Part shown: positions 2,902-13,616 of the stretch, in pieces | Layout: each line of letters starts with the position of its first letter | Position numbering within the stretch: position 1 is the stretch's first letter | From: Lepidurus packardi | Taxonomy: Eukaryota; Arthropoda; Branchiopoda; Notostraca; Triopsidae | Assembly (NCBI GenBank): GCA_023053545.1 | Contig: JAKZAN010000002.1 | Coordinates: 9,606,790 to 9,670,789, forward strand | Length of the DNA stretch: 64,000 nt | Reading direction: 5' to 3' | Notes under the pieces: generated by a model | What the model was told of the DNA's origin: nothing | The model's input: only the letters and a program-made list of their open reading frames with translations | The model's database searches: none | Translations under genes and position numbers: made by a program

Positions 2902-3070
2902 TTTTTCTTTCACTCAAGGTAGCAACTGCACGGGCTAACATGACCCTTCCCTTGTTTACCAAAAGTAGCAACTCTCGCATAAGCGGGTTCAGACATGTTT
3001 GGGGAGGAGCCTAAGCGACCCGCAAAATCCTTATTTAGCTTCAGGCGAGGTATTGCAAACCGCAGCACAC

Positions 3071-3078
3071 TATATAAG
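3071..3078 (+). promoter_or_regulatory. Candidate TATA box upstream of the OTU gene
   Basis: TATATAAG lies about 270 bases before the ATG at 3347, with pyrimidine-rich initiator-like sequence about 30 bases further on. A repeat-rich leader follows. The assignment is based on position only. Confidence 0.4.
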
Positions 3079-3142
3079 GCCGCTGCATGTAACGTTTTCT
3101 TCTTCCAGTCCTTCACTTTCTTTCGCTCACTAGTCGGCAATA

Positions 3143-3232
3143 AGTGTAGTTCCTTATTTAGTGTAGTTTCTTGTTTAGTGTAGTTCCTTATTTTCTGTAG
3201 TTCTTCATAACCCCGGATTACTTATTTAGTGT
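3143..3232. repeat. Short degenerate tandem repeat (about 18-20 bp)
   Basis: Variants of 'tttagtgtagttccttatt' occur at least four times in the leader between the candidate TATA box and the OTU gene. Copies differ by a few bases and are interrupted by two 'aaccc(c/t)ggatta' segments. Confidence 0.6.
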
Positions 3233-3346
3233 AGTTATTCTCTTAACCCTGGATTAATTTTTTCAGTAAGGTTTGTTTTTATTTTATTCTGTGTTTCCCT
3301 GTGTTTCTTTTCTTCTAACAAATTAACTTTTTCATTTCCTTTTAAT

Positions 3347-5653
3347 ATGGATACATCAAGGGCGCTGTTTTTTGAAAGCTGTCTTCGCGATCTTGAGCAT
3401 GCAGCTAATTTGCCAGCATCGGTCTACGTTAGCACGTCGACAGAGCGCGTAAACATTTCTAATGAACATTTTGAGAAATTTCGACAAGTATGTTTCTCGA
3501 AAAAAAAAGAGTTTATTGCCTACCCTCTACCAAACCGTGTGGCAAGGGTGCAGTCATTTCGGTGTTTGAGAATTGACCCAACTGCTTGCCAAACTTTGCC
3601 CGAACGTTTTAGCGGAGTTTTAGCTTTGGAAAGCAAAGGAGATGGGAATTGTTTCTTCAATTCCGCTTCTTTGTCTTTGTTCGGCAACCAAAGTAAGGCC
3701 GTTGAGTTGCGCTGCCGAGTTGTAGTCGAGTTGGCGACTAATTATAAGTTGTACTCCAGAGAGTCAGCCGGATACCTCTCCGAGAAACAAATTACTGCCC
3801 TTAACACGTACTCAGGATTCCGTTTCGACCGTATTATCTTCACGGGCGATGATGGCACAGCGTGCCCTACAGGTATTCCACCGACGGAAGACTGTTTGAA
3901 GTTCTATTCCATGGAACAGACCAAGAATCTGGAATATTCGAGCATACTTGCATTCCCAGCTTTGGCTAATGTTTGTAAGATAGCCGTGGAGTCGGTTTAT
4001 CCGAAAGCGGATGGCAGCCTCGCGCGACTTCATCCAGCGCTTCTTTTAAACGAAACTTTTTCACCAAATGATGTCGTTTCGCCGGAAACTATCCGCATAA
4101 TGTGGACTGGGGATTTCAGGGGGTGCTCGAGGTCAAAAAGTGGACGTTTAGTCCCTACACCTAACTGGAATCCCATTCATTTTGTACCTTTGTTAGAGCG
4201 CGAGCGTGCGAGTCAATCTCCCGTCCTTTTGTCAGAGAATTGCTGTAGGCCTACTCTGCCCGTTGTTGATTTTGTAGAAGCTGCATCAGAAATTTTCGAT
4301 CACCCAGTTGAAGCTGCAAGTGTGGCAGCACCTGTAGTTAACTTATGCAGTTCTATGCAAAATAGTAGTACCGCCACTAGTTCAGGGCTTCGCGAGTCGT
4401 TCTCCCATGAAAATTCAGGCTCAAGGTTGGGATTGTCAGTCCCTAAAGCTGTTGTCGCTAAAAATGGAGAGCACGAAGGAAATGTCACAAAAGGCATTTC
4501 ATCGAATGATAATAAAACACCTCGTGCAAAGCTAGGCAGAGCAGACTCCCATAATAAGCAAGGGCATGCAAAATTTTCGTGCACGGGATGTGCAACAACG
4601 TTTAAAACAAATCAAAATTTGGAGAATCACATTAAGAACCAGCGCTGTAAGCTTCAGCTAGAAAAACAAAGCTCTAGTCAAATTCTTCCTGTGGACCAAG
4701 GATCTCAAGGCTTTACATGTGAAGACTGTAAAACTGTTTTTACAAGGAAGAACAATTTGAAGGTACATGTAGAAAAGAAAAGGTGCCATGTGTCTAGATT
4801 TCAATGCCTGCAATGTAGTTTGCAATTTACTAGAAAAGACCTGCTCACCCGTCATGTAGACGTAGTTCATTCTCTTGTATTAGAAGAAACAAGTACTTTC
4901 GAGGAGATCCCCTTAATTGCCCCGGTAGACAAGGAGCAGCAGTCTTTAACCGTGGTTTCAGTGGACAAGCAGCAATTGCCTAGCTTAGTCGAGTTAGATC
5001 AGTCAGAGCTGATTCATGACCCAGTAGTACATTCTGCGTCTCAGAGCAGTGGTAGTGCTAGCGTTGCCAAAGATTATTCTTTAGACATGATTTCAGGTAA
5101 CACACAGCAATTGCATACCTTAGTCGAGTTAGATCAGTCAGAGCCGACTTATGACCCCGTAACAAGTTCTGCGTCTCAGAGCAGTGTTAGTGATGGTAGT
5201 GTGTCTGCTGATACCATTAATTGCAGTACTTTAGTCACCGATTCTGACGATGAATTCTGTAGCGTTGCTAGAAAAAAGAGAAAGCTCGAACAGCAACCAA
5301 GAATAGTTTGCTATTACCCTGGTTGTGAAGCGAAGCTGTCACGTCTGACGTCTTATGTTGAGCATGCTAACAGTCATGGTTTGTCCTGCAAGCTAGACGA
5401 ACTCAGTTTTACTGACGAGAACAGTTTCTTGTCATGGAAAACAGAGATAGAAAGAAGTGCATGTGTTAGTTTTCGTAATAGAAGGGGAGCTCGGAAGTGC
5501 ACTAGTTACAGTACAACAACCTACGTGTGCAATCGCTCTTTCTTGTATAAAAATGAGGGTACGGGCAAACGTGCCCTGAAACGACTAAAATCTTGTCGTA
5601 CAGATGTTTATTGTACCAGCTTTATAATTGCGCAAGTATGGCACCTTACATAA
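3347..5653 (+). pseudogene. MULE-type transposase N-terminal part: OTU protease plus C2H2 fingers
   Basis: An intronless frame of 768 codons. Residues 90-285 form an OTU cysteine protease: the nucleophile motif DGNCF places the cysteine at 102, and the catalytic histidine fits NPIHF at 278. C2H2-type fingers follow at about residues 408-515 (FSCTGC..., FTCEDC..., FQCLQC...), with another CYYPGC...H...H unit near 650. The last 50 residues (VCNRSFLYKN, then CTSFI) resemble the FLYWCH/FAR1-like start of MULE transposases. The frame is cut by TAA at 5651, yet the same frame stays family-like to about 5772 (LTHVGHDRLPGR), so this looks like a nonsense mutation. A further part lies at 6154. OTU domains deubiquitinate proteins. 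The transposase link is inference, and a host gene of unknown function remains possible. Confidence 0.6.
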
Positions 5654-5775
5654 AGAATTGATGTTACATGTTGCCTAACTCATGTTGGCCATGATCGTTT
5701 ACCAGGACGTTGTCGCCTTCATAAAGAAACAAAACAAGAATTACAACAGAAGCTTTTGTTATGGGAGTAATGCAC
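5654..5775 (+). pseudogene. In-frame continuation of the OTU/zinc-finger frame past a stop codon
   Basis: Directly after the TAA, the same frame reads on for about 40 codons with THVGHDRLPGRCRLHKE. This has the spacing seen after FLYWCH-like modules in MULE-type proteins (H-x2-H motif followed by a basic helix). It stops at TAA near 5775. The next 340 bases (to about 6115) carry no matching sequence. They look like an insertion or an unrecognised intron before similarity resumes. Confidence 0.5.
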
Positions 5776-6153
5776 GTTTGACACGAAGAACGAGGGGAAA
5801 AATACGTACTGTATTCAACACCTCAACTGTCGATGTTACAACGATGACAGTGTAAATGATAATTAACAATGGGGGGTTGATTTCACGGGCACGCCTATCT
5901 CTTTTGCTCACTTGACAAAACCTCTGTTCTCTAAGACCACTCTTTCTCTTCTCTCTCCCTTGGATTCCCCACTCCCGAACTCAACTCACTTTTCTACCTC
6001 GGGGGTTGACATCGTACAAACAAGGTAACACAAAACAAAACAAGGGAAAACTGGTGCCCGTTTACCCCAAGCCTAGCGCTTACTAGTGCACATGTACCGG
6101 GGTACATAACACTTTTTATCGGAATCCCTAAACGCAAAATTGTTGAGAGTTGT

Positions 6154-7059
6154 ATGGCAGAAACCATCATCGGTGATGGACTTTCTAGGGATCAGGCCGT
6201 TACCATGAAAGATCTGCATAACTTAGCTCAGAAAAACCCGAGTGTCTTCCGGAAACATAAGATCGATTCTGAGAGCGTTGACTTGTGGGTCAAACAAATG
6301 GCAACAGAGGAATATAATCCGGTATTTCTGTATAAAAAGCAAAATGTTGCAGATGAAGGTGTCTGCAAGCATATCCATAGAGTTACCCCAGTTTTAAGTG
6401 ACAATCTGCGTCATTCACGTGTCATAGGAGCGGCATTAGTAGAGCAACAGATCGCTGAAAATGCCCAGCTAGAAAAGTTAGCTAGAACAACTAAACCGCC
6501 AGCCGTTTCCTTGGCAAACATTCGTAGAGACTTGCGCGAGATTCTTAATACGTTAACAACTGATCCTGGAGCCATCCGTGATTTGGAGATTCTTGTGGCT
6601 ACAGCAAGACTTGTTAACAGTAGACCACCAGAGGAAAAGATAGTAAAAGAGACGTTCGAAAAATTAACTGACGTCCGTTCTAATGCCAAATTTATACCTC
6701 AAAGAGAATTTCATCGGACGCGCAAGCCGTACAATAACAAACCATCGAATGTCTTTCTAAGACATGGATTTAGCGATCAGCCATCCGACGTTTTAGATGA
6801 CATCGTACCGCAACTCTGCGCTGGTTGCAGCAAACGAAACGATCCTGATGACGACCTTGATGATGATATTACTTGGGTTTGTTGCAGCGTGTGTAAGTCT
6901 TGGTTTCATATAACTTGCGCTCACAAGCAGCAGCCAGATTTATGCCTAAATAGTATACCAATGGACGACTTACATGATATTCAGTACATATGCCTTGTCT
7001 GTGTTAATGAAAGGGATAATGTAGTATTGCTTTGCATTTCGCAAAGCAATACTAATTAG
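6154..7059 (+). pseudogene. MULE-type transposase C-terminal part with SWIM remnant and PHD finger, DDE core missing
   Basis: A frame of 301 codons. Residues 1-62 (KDLHNLAQ, VDLWVKQM, YNPVFLYKKQ) match the linker that precedes the DDE domain in MULE-type proteins. At residue 63 it jumps straight to DEGVCKHIHRV (about 67-77), which looks like the CxH half of a SWIM zinc finger. Such fingers lie after the DDE domain. The few hundred residues of catalytic core are therefore absent. The C-terminal third carries a PHD finger: CAGC at 223-226, WVCCSVCKSWFHITC, then a final CLVC. The frame is open upstream of this ATG, so the true start may be earlier (about 6118). It is on the same strand as the OTU frame and is probably the same decayed gene. 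No intact transposase can be made from it. Confidence 0.55.
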
Positions 7060-7129
7060 CAATAGCAATTTTTTGATTGACTTCGCATTTTATTGCCGTA
7101 TTCATGTCAATAAGTGTCAAGGTAGTCAA

Positions 7130-7437
7130 AGGTAGTTTGGGAGTTTTACTCGCAGGGTGCAGCTATGTGCAGCAAAGTTGTGATTTTTAGTTTCCACGAA
7201 GTCTGATAGTCTTACTCGCAGAACGCAGCTATATGCAGCAAAGTTGTGATTCGTGTTTCCAAATAATCTGCGAGTTATACATCAGCAATTATATTCAGCA
7301 AAGTTGTGATTTTTAGTTTCCACGAAGTCTGATAGTCTTACTCGCAGAACGCAGCTATATGCAGCAAAGTTGTGATTCGTGTTTCCAAATAATCTGCGAG
7401 TTATACATCAGCAATTATATTCAGCAAAGTTGTGATT
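7130..7437. repeat. Tandem array, 126-bp unit of two related half-units
   Basis: The string 'cagcaaagttgtgat' recurs with its ends near 7184, 7250, 7310, 7376 and 7436, a spacing of 66/60/66/60 bases. The higher-order 126-base unit is nearly identical in its two full copies (7185-7310 and 7311-7436). The array begins about 70 bases after the PHD frame and may belong to the end of that element. Confidence 0.9.
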
Positions 7438-8220
7438 TAAGTTTTCAAGCTGAATTGTATTTATGATTGTGAATTCGATGTATGGTTGTGAATTGAGTGT
7501 ATGGGTGTGAAGGTAAAAAGGGGTACCACACACCGTGACACGACTGAGATGTATTGGAATATTAATATCAGTACACTCGGTAACCGTGTCATCGCTGAGT
7601 GGGACCCGCAAGCACTTTGAATTGTTGTGAATTCCATTTCATTGTGTTGTGTTTTGAAATTTGAATTTTTTTAGAACATTGCAGAAATATACAATTAAAC
7701 AAGAAAAATATTTTTTTTATTTTACAAAGTAATTTTTATTTTTTCGGGCATATTTTAATAGGCATTATGCGGTCACAGCATTATTACAGCGGCCACGGAA
7801 GTGTGCATAACAAAAAAGGTAACCAGAAGCAACTACTGTACATACAAAAAAGCTTAATAACTGACATGTCAGCACTCTTTTCAACTTATCCATGACACAA
7901 CGCCATCAGTGATTTGGACTGAATAAGGAGCTTCTAAAGTTGGCAACTTAGATAGGGCTGCTCGAACTGCTCTTGTCTTACCTTCCCACGCTCTATAGGT
8001 CCGCTTAAACAAAAAACTCATAACTCCCGATGGATTTTTTGACAGGAAGGTTAGCAACGTCTGCAAAATCTTTTCTGATCATTTTAACGGCTTTCCTTAC
8101 TTTTTCTATTGCCCACACCCAATAACAGCGAAATGAAGCGTGAAATTTAGCGAAAACTAAAAGAATTAATAAAGGAAACTCTAAAGATCGCAAAAACTAA
8201 ATACAACTTTGTAGACTGCT
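7438..8220. other. Non-coding, AT-rich
   Basis: Nothing convincing on either strand: reading frames are short and lack family features. A purine/T-rich patch lies near 7650-7750. Confidence 0.5.
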
Positions 8221-8302
8221 AGGTGGTTGCCTATAGTCGCTCCGGGTTTCGGCTTTTCGAGGTTTTGCCGCCTAGTCGCTCCGGGTTTAGGCTTTTAGGC
8301 AA
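8221..8302. repeat. Two-copy GC-rich tandem repeat
   Basis: 'tagtcgctccgggtttcggc' near 8234 is repeated at about 8273 with a single change (tttagg for ttcgg). The unit is about 40 bases. It sits in otherwise AT-rich sequence. Confidence 0.6.
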
Positions 8303-8770
8303 AAAGTCAGTACTGCTCACCGTGTACTCCCTTCCTGTCTTCTCTTCCCACGGTACGTAGGCTACACAATCTTTTCTGCTTTTTCCAGAATCTTCCTTAC
8401 TTTTGCTATTGCCCCGCACCCACTACTTGTTTTTAGGCTTTTCTACCTCAAACTTTGACTTCCAAATTTGGCTTATATGAAGAATTTGCCATGCGGTTTA
8501 ATAGTGTTGATAGAAGAAGACACTACATAGCTGATGGGCTATGTGTCTTTTCTGTTTACTGTTTTAAAAAAATGCTATCAAATAAATAAGAACTGATACA
8601 AATAAGAATAAGAATTGTAAGAACCGGTACTGATAAAGAAGCTATATACAAAGATAACTACTTATATACAATATATGCTACTGTAATAACTAATACGAAG
8701 ATAACTTACGCCAAATCAACTGGTCATAAACTTAAGCTATGAAAAAAATTTGCTTCAGCAACACCGGTTC

Positions 8771-9062
8771 CAGAATTCCCTAATCGGAAATTCTAAGTTG
8801 CCCTCTTTGGACCCCTTATGAGTTGTCTTCTATGTTGACTTTCTTATTGTGTTCCTTTATACTTATTCCTTAGAAGGGCCTATTGACTTAACTTGGCTAG
8901 CACTTCCTAGACTTTTCGTAGAACAGCCTCCAATACCCTATATAGGAGATTATCTCTTGCGGATATATAAAGTGGAATCAGCATAGGCAAAAGATGTAAT
9001 TCTTCGCCAGCGCTCACGCAATCTACGCAAGCTCTTGTAAAAGTAGCCAAGTAAAACAAGTT
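8771..9062. repeat. Dispersed repeat copy 1, with TATA motif
   Basis: About 290 bases that recur with roughly 85-90% identity by eye at 9934-10222. The unit contains 'cctaatcggaaattctaagt', then 'cagcctccaataccctat', a TATA box (atatataaag, 8963-8972) and the downstream 'cttcgccagcgctcacgcaa'. A TATA box followed by a conserved leader would fit the promoter part of an LTR or of a lost gene family. No polymerase or gag frame lies between the copies, so the element type is unknown. Confidence 0.7.
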
Positions 9063-9933
9063 CCTTTAACTATAATCTAAAAAGCCCAACACTTTCATTG
9101 TCTTTTCATTTTAATTCTTGCGATCAAAATAAATGTCCTTCACTTTTGCTTCTTTCGTTCTTCACGACCTTCCCATACCAATACCGCGAAAATAGGGGGT
9201 GGAGGATACTTGGAAGACTTTTGACCGACTTCTGCAAACAATCTACGTCTATTCTCTCTGTCGTGTCAATAAACGGCGAAAACGGACCACATTTCGAGTT
9301 TTTATTTCAGAGTGGTAAATATTTTGAGAATTTTACTCACTTCTGTTGGGTTTTCATCTGTACTTCTTTTTGGTGGGCCATATCAAATCCAAACTGGGCT
9401 CATTTATTCTATTTTTTTTCCAAATGAAGTCCAAATAAAGGTGAAAAAGACGCCCAATCCTTCTCCATGAGTTCAATAAACATCTCGTTGCGAACCTGAA
9501 TTAAATTTTAGCCATCGATTAAGCTTTCCAATTCTTGAGATTGTTTCAAGTTCTAAGAACATTGGTTAATTTCCATTAAACCCCGTGTAGACACCCTAAT
9601 TCTCATTAACTGAAGCGCAAGTTGACAAATAAGCACATTTCGCAAACCTCGGAAAAAGTTGTACCCAGGTAGACTACGTTTGAAAAAATAAATACTGTGG
9701 TAGTAGGATGAGTCACGTACGAGAGCTAGAGAAGGCAAGTCGTGTACCAGAGTGCGAACAGTAAAGTCGAGTTTTTACTTTTGATCCGTGATTACTTTAA
9801 CCCTGTGTAACGAGTGAATTTGCTTGCCATACAGAATAAAGACACTTAGCCTATATTAATACAACATTAACCCATGCTTATAGAAGCTGCTTATTCTTCG
9901 AAGTCGGTAAGTTAGCTCACCGTGTATTCCCTT

Positions 9934-10222
9934 CCAGAGTTTCCTAATCGGAAATTCTAAGTTGCCTTCTTTTGACCCATTCTGAGTTGTCCTCTCTATT
10001 GACTTCCTGATTTTGTTCCTTCATTTATCCCTTAGAAGCCAGCATTGACTTAACTTAACCAGCACTTCCTAGACTTTTTGAAAAACAGCCTCCAATACCC
10101 TATAGGAGATTATCTCTGGCGTATATATAAAGTGGAATCAGCATCAGCAAAAGATGTAATTCTTCGCCAGCGCTCACGCAATCTACGCAAGCTCTTGTAA
10201 AAGTAGCAAAGTAAAACAATGG
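9934..10222. repeat. Dispersed repeat copy 2, with TATA motif
   Basis: Second copy of the unit at 8771, in direct orientation about 1.16 kb downstream. Its TATA box is at 10122-10132. The 'gctcaccgtgtattcccttc' just before it also occurs near 8316, so fragments of one element seem to be shuffled across this tract. Confidence 0.7.
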
Positions 10223-10372
10223 AATAAACTATGGAATCAGGATAGGTACCAAGAGTTTTTCGAGCAATCACACAATCTACTCGAGCTCTTGTAAAAAGTA
10301 GTCTAGTAAAACAAGTTCCTTTAACTAATCTAAACGCCCTACATTTGTCATTGTAATTCTTGCGATCGTAAT
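10223..10372. repeat. Partial third copy of the dispersed repeat
   Basis: Only the 3' part of the unit is present: 'atggaatcaggatagg', a diverged 'caatctactcgagctcttgt', and 'aacaagttcctttaacta' followed by 'aattcttgcgatc', which also follows copy 1 near 9112. Confidence 0.6.
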
Positions 10373-12460
10373 CGTCATGCAGCTTACTTAAAGTTAATCA
10401 TGGTTGCTGCCTGACTTTGGTAGTTAGATAATGCACTCCAAAAGAACCTGGTCTATTCATTAAAACAACACAGGAACCTTTTTTTTCCAAAGCCAAAACC
10501 GTCGGAGCTTATATACGGGTAGTTCAGGACGCAAATATAGAAAGATCACAACAATTAGTCGTCCGAGTGCGGTTAATCAACAGTACAAGTGGAATAAGGT
10601 CAGGTCAGGTCAGATCAAAGACTTAGGTCAAATACCAAACATAATCTCCCAATACCAAGGTTAACTGATAAGAAATACACATCCTTATACCTAGGCTATA
10701 GATGGGACTAGTTAATGCCGATAATCAACTCCGACTATGCTGAGTTAAATGTGTTTAAGTGAGTCGTCTAGAAACAACAACATTAACGCTAATGATAATC
10801 AACTGTTAACGAAGTTTCCGAATTGATAAAGTTGTTACAACTTCATTAACTATGACCAACATTTAGCTAATGCCTAAAAGTCGCGTCTAGACAACTTATC
10901 TGATTAAGTTAGGACTAGGATATGACAAAATAGCATTTCGTCACTTCGTAAAAACGTTTTCCTCATATAAATATAAAAAATAACCAATCCGAATAAAAAC
11001 CGAATCGGTCTCTTTTCTAGTGTAGGCCTTAACTGATCACAAATGCACCGCAAATAATGCTCTGAAAAAAAATAATTGGCCATACGTGAAAACGTCATTT
11101 TTTGGTCGTTCGAATGGACTTTCTGTCGATAATGTGTTTAATTATGTGAAGGTGCTACACCTAATAAAGCACTGAAAAGGTTTAGTCTTGGTAAAGCATA
11201 TTTCTTCGCGTCGGAAAAAGTCTACATTCCGAAAATGAACAACACGGATGTGAAAGAAAGATGGTTATATAACAAACTATTTTTCAGAATGTACTACTTA
11301 TTTATAGATCTTTATACAAATCAGGAGACGTCTTATTAATGAAACTATATATTTTGATTGATTGTCTCTCCTATTTCTCGCTATTCTTTTGCGCAAGATG
11401 AGCAGCTGGACGAGAATTAAAGTTTCTCCAAGAAAACTTGGACAAACACTTCACTTGTCAAAGGTGTAAGCGGAAACACGTCCATCGTTTGCGGTTCAAA
11501 ATACTTTCTGATAGGAAAGCGACAGTAAAAATACTTTTTGACAGAAAAATGTTGTCCACATGCTTCCAAACTCTCGATATGGCCGTCACGAAAAAAATTC
11601 CTTTCCTATTTTAGAGCTCCGGAAATTCTGTGGGTCAAAGTAATATTCTTTGCGTCATAATTAAGTTTACCAGTCAAACAACAGCTATCAAAGAATTTAT
11701 TATGCATAAATATAGATAGATCGAGAAATGGACTGTTTCACACAGCCCTCTACGAGACTTGTTGGAAAATGCCATATCTACCAAAGCACTATGTATGACT
11801 CAACAAGACAAGACAGACGTACCATTTCTACTTTAATCAAACTGAGATCCACACATTTTCCTACAGAAGCCTTTTTATAATATCTCAACACAAGACTTGA
11901 CACACATTTCCTTCCGGTGTAGACTTTTAAACAGACTAGAGCCTATATTTATTACGTGAACTGGCAAAATTGAAACTACATTTTAAGTTAACCCACAGAC
12001 TTTTTTGACTGATCAAAGGCTTTTCCCAATAGTCGTGGCTTTATGTCAGCCTAAGAACTTTGCAAAAAACATAGTCATACTGCTTGCTGCCTTACAAGAA
12101 TTGAAACGAAGAAAAAAATCAGCAGCAGCATCAGATCACTTACGTTCCCAAAGAAAAGTTGCGAACTTCTCGTCCTTTAATTTTTATTTCAGGTTTTTAT
12201 TTTGTATTAAGGCATTTGTTAAGCATAATTTGGTCTTCTTGGTTATAAAAACTTGTTACTTAAACAACAAAGGACGGGGCTGTTAAGATAACATTCCACT
12301 TTCACTGTACGTTTTTTTAGTCATATTAATATTATTTCCGTTTTGTTGCCGTCAGTTGTCAAAAACCCATGCCACCTACTGAACACATAATATTTTTATA
12401 TTTATTATTTCGGTTCTAAGCACCCTAGGGCGTAAGCCGCAGCAAGGCATGGGGAGAAAA
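10373..12460. other. Non-coding tract
   Basis: No gene found. The one local oddity is a head-to-tail run of AGGTCA-like hexamers at 10595-10630, given as a finding. Confidence 0.5.
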
Positions 12461-12467
12461 AAAGATC

Positions 12468-12640
12468 ACGTGCAACATGCGTTTTGCTGCTTTTAAGAAC
12501 CTCCTACAACATGGCTGAATCCGCTTATGCGGCTTGCTGCTTTTAAAACACCTCCTGCGACATGGCTGAATCCGCTATGCGGCTTGCTGCTTCTAAGCCA
12601 CCTCCCTCAGAACCCGCTTTTATGCGGGGTTGCTACTTTT
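12468..12640. repeat. Imperfect tandem repeat, about 60-65 bp unit
   Basis: Roughly three copies of a unit built on 'ttgctgcttttaa', 'cacctcctgc' and 'catggctgaatccgcttatg'. Each contains a small 'ccgc..atgcgg' hairpin. Confidence 0.7.
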
Positions 12641-13616
12641 GGTAAACAAGAGGGTCATGATAGCTCAACGTGGTAGCAACTACGGAGTTCGTTGCAGTTG
12701 GAAGGTCACACTGCCTTGTGTATGCAAACACAGCTTGTTTAACAACAAAAAAGGAGGGCGGGGTCTAAAGTTTCAAATTTTAAATGGTAAAGGTCAACCA
12801 CGAGATGTCCTGCATTTTCTTTAGTCTCCGTTAGATGTCGGCTTGAAAAGTTCGAACATAACAAACATTACAAGCGTAAAGGCAGCGGTTGCGTCGTAAA
12901 TGCCGGTAAACGCGAATGCAATCACAAATACGGGTTGGAGTTGGTCAGTTTAAGGTTGCGTAAGGGACGATTAAAGTCATTAAAGAAGCGATTATCAGTC
13001 GCAGAAAAAAAACGGATTTGTGTTTGGTAGTCAACCCTAATTATTCGATAACTATGTGCAGAGATAGTCATCGGTCAAAGAGGGGAAGCCAAGGGCGGAT
13101 TATTGATCCGATCCATGCATATACACATAACGACAACATAAGAGCGGCGATTTCATGTTTAGGGGGGAACGGGGGCGGGGTCTGCTTTCTCCCCTTTAGC
13201 TGCAAGCTTTGAACCCAAACAGGGGATTCCTCATGTTCCATATGCTCCCCCGCCGAGCATTAGGCAAAGGCCTCAAGTTATAGTTAGACGTGTTCGCATC
13301 TGGCATCTGCGTCTGGCTGCTCACATTCACACAATCCTTACAACGCCCCCCACACGGTGAACCCAAACACAAAATCTACGGAAGTTAGTTGCACCCTCCC
13401 CCCATTTTGGCCTGGCTTTTTCGCCTCCCGTTCGCCGAGTTTACAGTTTAGGTCCGGACGAGAGCAAGAAACATCAACGTCCGCTTTGTCCGTTGGCTGC
13501 TCTCAATTAAGTCCAATTGATCTCATCAACGTCAGATTTTTAACTCACCCAGTGACAAAATTTCCTAGGCACTGAACCAAACGAATTAGCTTAAAACCAA
13601 ACGAGCTTTGTTAAAA
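12641..13616. other. Non-coding tract before the first Orange-domain gene
   Basis: No reading frame with recognisable features. The last few hundred bases are GC-richer and presumably hold the promoter of the gene starting at 13617. I could not pick a TATA box. Confidence 0.4.

Follow-up and report, generated by a model that had tools for sequence, protein, structure and literature searches.

Repeated in-frame loss of the DDE core in a Rehavkus-like MULE family of Lepidurus packardi that carries an OTU-like domain at its N-terminus

Results

The window, the 64,000-nucleotide stretch of Lepidurus packardi DNA that was analysed (positions prefixed W), carries two plus-strand reading frames. The first spans 807 codons from stop to stop, with a methionine at W3347 and a stop codon at W5651–5653, and the second spans 349 codons (W6010–7059). 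The initial annotation had read them as the two ends of one MULE-type transposase, and this proved correct: they match residues 1–805 and 803–1453 of a 1,453-residue protein encoded by a relative on contig C5. This C5 element measures 10,953 bp and has a single open frame with an OTU-like domain, three C2H2 fingers, a MULE DDE domain, a SWIM motif and a PHD-like finger. Full-length matches to the 768-residue N-terminal part of the window copy, at 98–99% identity, occur at four other loci, and its frame is therefore not a product of chance.

Table 1. Features of the window copy
Feature	Position (W)	Strand	Remarks
Left target-site duplication	2918–2926	+	GGTAGCAAC; exact 9-bp repeat at both element ends
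Complete transposon copy	2927–12671	+	9,745 bp; TIR pair; ends set by comparison with the C5 element
5' terminal inverted repeat (TIR)	2927–2993	+	Begins TGCACGGGCTAAC; TIR search and C5 comparison
N-terminal frame	3347–5653	+	OTU-like (residues ~60–300), three C2H2 (~409–508), linker, cysteine-rich region
OTU catalytic boxes	3638–4186	+	DGNC (C102 at 3650–3652), WNPIHF (H278 at 4178–4180)
Left 4-bp target duplication of insert	5753–5756	+	CTTT; right copy 6112–6115; against the uninterrupted C5 site
355-bp insert	5757–6111	+	TG...CA; splits the transposase gene; absent from the C5 relative
Transposase coding	6112–6360	+	Aligned to C5 protein residues ~804–886
Deletion junction	6361–6362	+	GT microhomology; 1,008-bp in-frame deletion against C5; MULE DDE core and first SWIM half lost
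C-terminal part	6364–7059	+	SWIM remnant CKHIHRV, then PHD-like finger (~6817–7002), stop 7057–7059
Tandem repeats 3' of gene	7142–7438	+	Periods 60, 66 and 126
Minisatellite	12477–12605	+	50 bp x 2.6, directly before 3' TIR; same array in the C5 relative
3' terminal inverted repeat	12607–12671	-	TIR search and C5 comparison
Right target-site duplication	12672–12680	+	GGTAGCAAC; same exact 9-bp repeat

The gap between the two frames is due to a substitution stop and an insertion, not to loss of the DDE domain. A TAA, in the place of a lysine codon of the C5 relative, closes the N-terminal frame. The 355-bp insert has 27 matches in the genome, including at least six pairs spaced 4.8–5.2 kb apart, and is probably a solo LTR; it supplies W6010–6111 and with it the opening 34 codons of the second frame. 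The window copy thus interrupted cannot make an OTU-to-PHD protein and yields at best a 768-residue fragment with the OTU-like domain and C2H2 fingers.

The span first proposed stops at W7059; the element extends far beyond it, to W12671. We consider W2927–12671 very probably a Rehavkus-like MULE DNA transposon that is non-autonomous through an internal deletion, a confidence that covers the identity of the element and its non-autonomous state and does not extend to the proposed regulatory function. The TIRs align at W2934–2993 against W12664–12607 with 85% identity over 62 columns. Target duplications of MULEs measure 8–11 bp; here a 9-bp duplication accompanies the TIRs and is found at both the window and the C5 elements, that of the latter being CTACTTCCA.

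The meeting point of YKKQ and CKHIHRV in the second frame does skip the entire catalytic domain, by 1,008 nucleotides and in frame, as the initial annotation had supposed. The junction lies inside the second frame as described, but at codon 117/118 of the stop-to-stop frame, not between residues 62 and 67. The C5 copy matches the MULE domain PF10551 with 40.6 bits (cut-off 27.6), the domain is absent from the window copy, and the DDE profile matches 63 places in the genome. Full-length relatives with a DDE domain thus exist, as the 1,453-residue C5 frame illustrates; a family whose intact members never had one, which would have refuted the initial reading, is not what we found. The deletion took more than the catalytic core: where C5 reads CDC...CDD...VCKHIHRV, everything before CKHIHRV is gone, so that half of the SWIM motif, thought to have been kept, is lost as well. 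The reading as a non-autonomous derivative is supported.

Both catalytic boxes of the OTU-like domain are present with their cysteine and histidine, as initially noted. Two alignments of four sequences each show no variation at the GNC and W-P-HFVP positions, and GNCF and W-P-HFVP are common to the family and a sister family despite an identity of 41–42%. The Pfam match of the window OTU remains below the cut-off (E=0.015; 16.2 bits against 23.3). PDB searches with this part returned OTU enzymes as 4 of 5, 9 of 9 and 10 of 12 matches, none of them significant (best E 0.064); the 9 of 9 come from a profile search and are all OTU deubiquitinases at a non-significant E of 0.15 or worse. One PDB match, 6dx2, is presumably a viral OTU. 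A single-sequence AlphaFold2 model of the fold had a pLDDT of 30 and was left unused. Searching the genome with the Pfam OTU family gave six matches, none at copies of the W2927–12671 family, whose OTU is therefore too divergent for the Pfam route. All three C2H2 fingers have significant Pfam matches and were rightly listed as kept. The PHD assignment is by likeness: a C-terminal Cys/His pattern with sub-threshold Pfam matches in the window (E=0.008; 16.6 bits, cut-off 24) and in the C5 copy (E 0.021).

A search for 5' ends gave 42 matches, 39 of which are 5' ends, and OTU coding follows all 39, within 432 bp in 38 cases and after 3.0 kb in one. These ends are not independent, 12 lying on the single contig C20, and some copies escape the search, as 16 of 55 OTU rows lack a listed 5' end nearby. 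OTU-only derivatives occur among them; L070, the sole one read, keeps both catalytic boxes. Between the A and B subfamilies the OTU evolves fast (omega ~0.8).

DDE-less copies arose repeatedly: within this one genome, two related families have each lost the core in frame more than once. We read 30 loci at base level from each of two genome searches for family copies and found ten distinct deletion junctions in the window family and two in the sister family. One open frame runs across 9 of the 10 (p=3.6e-4) and across both of the 2, so that 11 of 12 junctions are in frame against one third expected (p=4.7e-5; post hoc test). Junctions with a common left breakpoint may be nested events; when counted more strictly, 7 of 8 are in frame (p=0.003). 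Of 21 DDE-less copies, only about 10 have an uninterrupted frame from OTU to PHD, and 11 do not. Among the siblings, C1:4843976–4847416 and C3:124728–127970 combine an open frame and retained C2H2 fingers with a deleted transposase core.

The window junction also occurs at C1:4847326, C1:4684935, C1:4760777 and C2:1556920, making five places, three of them read at base level. Three of the five belong to a single composite that is present in copies, as head-to-head pairs at C1:4.68, 4.76 and 4.85 Mb; these may stem from duplication or transposition and were counted once per junction type. Another single junction is common to two DDE-less copies with different 5' flanks (C1:3643266 and C3:124818). 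An old remnant at C1:10159824–10162888 also appears DDE-less, its junction frame not scorable because of seven stops in the C-terminal part.

In mapping the junctions, copy alignments of at most 40 bp, protein-mapping pieces shorter than 25 columns and pieces that reach no further than reference base 2300 were dropped. Left out were C-terminal pieces that are 5'-truncated or lie at a contig edge (C26, C41, C1:3827414, C6:8288655), the short piece C4:7751103, and loci whose C-terminal part is absent (C20, C21, C46, C16:814400, C16:820935, C6:3477755, C6:707534, C6:725490). C6:6383915, known from tabulated rows only and apparently of the 844/1236 type and in frame, was likewise omitted, as was C3:65819–69340 of the sister family, which has no MULE match, yet most of the core is kept in its rows. 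L071 (C16:1816104) was assigned to the 788/1272 type.

Within the DDE-less classes, four pairs hold 14 synonymous and 28 non-synonymous changes (p=0.14 or 0.08, depending on the assumed neutral share). The pair C1:4847326/C1:4684935 (4 synonymous, 8 non-synonymous) was excluded from this pool because one of its copies is shared with another pair.

Discussion

The closest described group is Rehavkus, for which the portions of the literature available to us give a 9-bp target duplication, a PHD finger and a minisatellite before the 3' TIR (PMC6446971), as well as a length of 9.5 kb for Rehavkus-1_TC (PMC10218199). The present elements share the 9-bp duplication, TIRs, a single transposase frame, the 3' minisatellite and the large size (9.7 and 10.95 kb), and carry a PHD-like pattern that is sub-threshold in Pfam. 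Compared with those descriptions, which in the portions available do not mention an N-terminal OTU or C2H2 fingers, our family has both and also a SWIM motif. The Phantom subclass of Mutator, described in PMC3169594 with an N-terminal FLYWCH finger, is likewise an animal MULE that joins a MULE domain to a zinc finger, but OTU and PHD go unmentioned in the part seen.

Transposon proteins with domains like those of deubiquitinases or SUMO proteases are known: according to the available part of PMC2836005, Ulp1 occurs on Mutator, and OTU on Ginger1, at the C-terminus, and on Helitron. Here, by contrast, the OTU is N-terminal and sits on a MULE. We found no OTU-bearing MULE in the literature searched, mostly open papers, which does not prove its absence. 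Two apparent precedents were discarded on the text available: in PMC6875170 OTU denotes operational taxonomic unit and PHD refers to a thesis, and the OTU proteases of PMC2673047 are maize genes unrelated to its Mutator lines. The initial annotation was only partly right in calling the domain set unusual, since OTU, C2H2, SWIM and PHD-like parts belong to the regular make-up of both this transposon and its sister family.

The window deletion probably came about through repair of the microhomology or filler type, either following excision or during gap repair, and the DDE-less form probably spread with transposase from full-length copies. Such spread in trans is suggested by the same junction at five places, three of them copies of the one composite, and by the other DDE-less class, whose two loci differ in their 5' flanks. 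Spread of a junction by gene conversion instead of transposition is also possible.

A similar structure is known from the P element, whose KP derivative is an internal-deletion repressor with experimentally known repression (PMC12393704, seen in part). As described there, KP shares with our copies the internal deletion, the retained DNA-binding part, a possible truncated protein and mobilisation by full-length transposase; it differs in belonging to another superfamily, OTU and PHD-like parts are kept here, and any repression here would be by analogy. The DDE-less siblings have this structure, a deleted core with an open DNA-binding part, whereas the window copy, with its stop and insert, does not. 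The DNA-binding part would be the C2H2 fingers. The 11 of 12 in-frame junctions suggest that DDE-less OTU/PHD proteins are retained. That these copies keep their frame because an OTU, zinc-finger and PHD protein of whatever function still acts is plausible from the sequences, if somewhat short of an even chance. Such a protein would most simply be a dominant-negative, KP-like regulator, binding element ends without cutting. The broader proposal, that OTU-bearing MULEs repeatedly shed the DDE core in frame and that the products are selected as trans-acting regulators or anti-silencing helpers, we put forward tentatively.

The strongest alternative bears on this regulatory step alone and comes close to an even chance. 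It holds that the copies simply decay without function, their frames still open through youth and the in-frame junctions owed to luck or nesting. Breaks are indeed found in the window copy and in about half of the DDE-less copies, dN/dS within classes is not significantly below 1, and the A-type copies, 98–99% alike in their N-terminal halves, are accordingly young. Youth accounts for missing stops, however, and not for the phase of the deletions, 11 of 12 of which are in frame against an expectation of one third; the sister family, if with two junctions only, behaves alike.

If a protein is retained, it could instead be a helper: copies that still make it would be favoured because its OTU deubiquitinates the transposase or chromatin or acts against silencing. 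VANC and MURB are accessory proteins that aid some plant Mutator elements. We regard such a helper as unlikely. The OTU coding that follows 39 of 39 5' ends, OTU-only derivatives among them, would suit it, but the fast evolution of the domain between the subfamilies speaks against it, and at the 5' end its retention may only mirror the part that deletions spare.

That the transposon is giving rise to an OTU-PHD host gene at this locus, the early domestication which the initial annotation had also considered, is highly improbable. The presence of the OTU cysteine and histidine boxes speaks for it, but the element has its own intact TIRs and 9-bp target duplication, its frame is broken by the stop and split by the insert, and it has many siblings; moreover, the OTU/PHD set belongs to the transposon itself and is therefore no sign of domestication. 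An origin of the DDE segment as an intron, with the DDE-less copies derived from processed cDNAs, would fit the clean loss of one internal block and nothing further, but is ruled out, to near certainty, by the diversity of the ten junctions, some of which show a filler or microhomology, and by a window junction incompatible with GT-AG splicing.

The window copy itself is an ordinary dead derivative and one copy among many of a MULE family. The interest lies in that family, in which a MULE carries an OTU-like domain at its N-terminus and has lost its core in frame on several occasions, as has the sister family. Should the DDE-less proteins act, they would form a natural series of independent births of repressors or helpers within one species, and what ubiquitin-type proteases do for transposons could be tested by comparing full-length with DDE-less forms. 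If the proposal is true, this would be a transposon family that repeatedly evolves its own deubiquitinase-type control protein.

The window copy and its full-length relative

Both frames of the window (C2:9606790-9670789; genome 108.6 Mb, 344 contigs) have near-identical relatives at many loci of the same genome. The best, hereafter C5 (C5:10844470-10848909, minus strand), encodes 1,453 aa in a single open frame that begins at its Met. From the N terminus, the protein has an OTU-like region carrying DGNC and WNPIHF boxes, then three C2H2 fingers; a linker and a cysteine-rich region lead to a MULE DDE domain (PF10551, 40.6 bits; cut-off 27.6), and beyond this come a SWIM motif and, at the C terminus, a PHD-like finger. 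As one frame spans all domains, the initial annotation rightly took the first window frame for the N-terminal and the second for the C-terminal end of a single transposase. Six copies with a DDE core were compared along the greater part of their length (C5, C1:3626087, C2:749651, C1:3836077, C2:834335, C33:21721), and among these only C5 is free of stops and frameshifts. The 3' part of the 10,953-bp C5 element also holds a nested 551-aa frame, which we read as a hAT-like transposase.

The C5 element begins with TGCACGGGC... and finishes with ...CTCAACGT; its duplication is 9 bp long, CTACTTCCA. Since this relative fixes the ends, the window element could be delimited by transfer, with GGTAGCAAC on either side. 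In both copies a 50-bp minisatellite immediately precedes the 3' TIR.

Mapped relative to C5, the window copy has a stop (Lys in C5), a 355-bp insert and an in-frame 1,008-bp deletion that removes C5 residues ~888 to 1221. The DDE core is indeed skipped, as had been proposed; the SWIM motif, thought to be kept, is deleted up to CKHIHRV. Because the insert starts with TG, ends with CA, has a 4-bp CTTT duplication and finds 27 genome matches, including at least six pairs spaced 4.8-5.2 kb, we read it as a solo LTR. The window copy is unremarkable: a dead, non-autonomous transposon. Beside it lies a gene of several exons, one of which carries an ADH_N domain; we take this gene to be MECR-like. 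As its ATG (2901) is 25 bp from the transposon end, the element is inserted in the 5' UTR or promoter.

Recurrent in-frame loss of the DDE core

Comparison of 19 copies without the DDE core (DDE-less), and of one more read in part (locus L071), with the C5 coding sequence revealed ten distinct junctions in this family. Several show the short microhomology or the filler bases that post-excision repair is expected to leave. A single open frame crosses nine of the ten (exception C1:7510523, 1181 nt), which has a chance of 3.6e-4 if one third is expected per event, in a post hoc test of a pattern already noticed. Pooling with a sister family gives 11/12 (p=4.7e-5); allowing a single junction per left breakpoint in the pooled set, and preferring the out-of-frame one given a choice, leaves 7/8 (p=0.003).

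Coordinates of features (W, window position; junctions as approximate C5 residues)
Feature	Position	Strand	Detail
N-terminal window frame	W3347-5653	+	frame listing
Second window frame	W6010-7059	+	frame listing
Window element	W2927-12671
Window TIR pair	W2934-2993, W12664-12607
Stop	W5651
Insert	W5757-6111		355 bp
Deletion	W6361		1,008 bp
ADH_N gene	W1507-2901	-
Junction	888/1222		net loss 1008 nt
Junction	807/1195		net loss 1161 nt
Junction	851/1258		net loss 1206 nt
Junction	844/1236		net loss 1176 nt
Junction	844/1238		net loss 1181 nt
Junction	851/1253		net loss 1206 nt
Junction	844/1262		net loss 1233 nt
Junction	844/1122		net loss 840 nt
Junction	788/1272		net loss 1449 nt
Junction	932/1206		net loss 816 nt
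213-nt finger-unit repeats	C2:1555974-1556790, C2:1026539-1027142, C1:4516438-4517043		B-type copies
C1 composite copies	C1:4679291-4689653, 4756268-4764880, 4842476-4852958
OTU-only derivative L070	C20:21600-24200		386-aa frame
551-aa frame (L069)	C5:10838000-10843000
Sister-family frames	C2:3077959-3081975, C3:2887812-2891828, C1:4668473-4672489		1,356 aa

The OTU-to-PHD frame is open in ~10 of 21 DDE-less copies, including both arms of two copies of a composite on contig C1. This composite, present three times, joins an A-type and a B-type element (subfamilies A and B) head-to-head, each arm DDE-less; two copies are joined at the 5' TIRs, and the third has lost its middle, its arms meeting within the coding part.

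The sister family is 41-42% identical to the window copy's family in the OTU part and ~50% in the remainder. Its candidates were C-terminal matches without a MULE match in the genome search, and four of five sequences were read; the fifth, C3:65822, keeps most of the core according to its alignment rows. Since two of the four are mutually identical (401 bases compared) and one is a 5'-truncated fragment, there are two distinct internal junctions (1440 and 2157 nt), both in frame; the best candidates of a fuller family listing held no additional ones. Of the three open frames of this family, the other two share 97-98% identity with the first across 1,032 aa, and the family has therefore probably been active recently.

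OTU retention and selection

The 5'-end search returned 42 matches: 11 at 96-100% identity, 28 at 69-71% (B subfamily), two 3' TIRs and one unplaced. OTU coding lies downstream of 39/39 5' ends (38 within 432 bp, one after 3.0 kb), a non-independent set with 12 on contig C20 among repeated OTU-only derivatives, from an incomplete search (16 of 55 OTU rows have no listed 5' end nearby). The one derivative read, L070, retains both boxes. Fifteen further places (C20, C21, C6) hold such derivatives, with frames of ~400 codons; 12 of the 16 are on C20 (249 kb) and four have an internal stop.

Between subfamilies A and B the DDE core is nearly identical (dS 0.01-0.02), whereas the OTU has diverged (dS ~0.26, dN ~0.21, omega ~0.80); the copies are therefore mosaics, with a fast-evolving OTU. 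The fingers give omega 0.25-0.30. Finger number evidently changes rapidly in B-type copies, where a 213-nt unit with C2H2 fingers is repeated in varying number. In four pairs within DDE-less classes, 28 changes are non-synonymous and 14 synonymous, a ratio that does not fall significantly below neutrality (p=0.14 or 0.08). This result speaks neither for nor against selection acting on the DDE-less protein.

Relation to known elements and possible function

Rehavkus, listed for arthropods and annelids, is described with a 9-bp TSD, TIRs 26-400 bp long, a single frame, a PHD finger and, ahead of the 3' TIR, a minisatellite (PMC6446971); the size given for Rehavkus-1_TC is 9.5 kb (PMC10218199). 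Compared by description, the window element shares the TSD and minisatellite; its PHD match is below threshold. The word OTU does not occur in the main text of PMC6446971 and PMC13359780; elements described with OTU are Ginger1 and Helitron, and Mutator is the one described with Ulp1 (PMC2836005). Our literature search found no OTU-bearing MULE.

Structure, deletion, insert, recurrence and frame are directly observed; we propose that full-length copies would supply transposase on which DDE-less copies spread. One junction is found at five places, and a second DDE-less class occupies two loci that differ in their 5' flanks; both are compatible with transposition, and gene conversion could instead have spread a junction. 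P-element derivatives offer a parallel: KP-type copies can make defective proteins that sit on transposase binding sites, and preferential mobilisation of internally deleted copies is considered probable (PMC12393704). With KP, a P-element deletion repressor, and similar derivatives as the model, the DDE-less protein would act most simply as a dominant-negative regulator. That some DDE-less copies encode a retained, acting protein of whatever kind is to us a serious possibility, somewhat short of even. Recurrent in-frame loss of the core in an OTU-MULE family merits follow-up.
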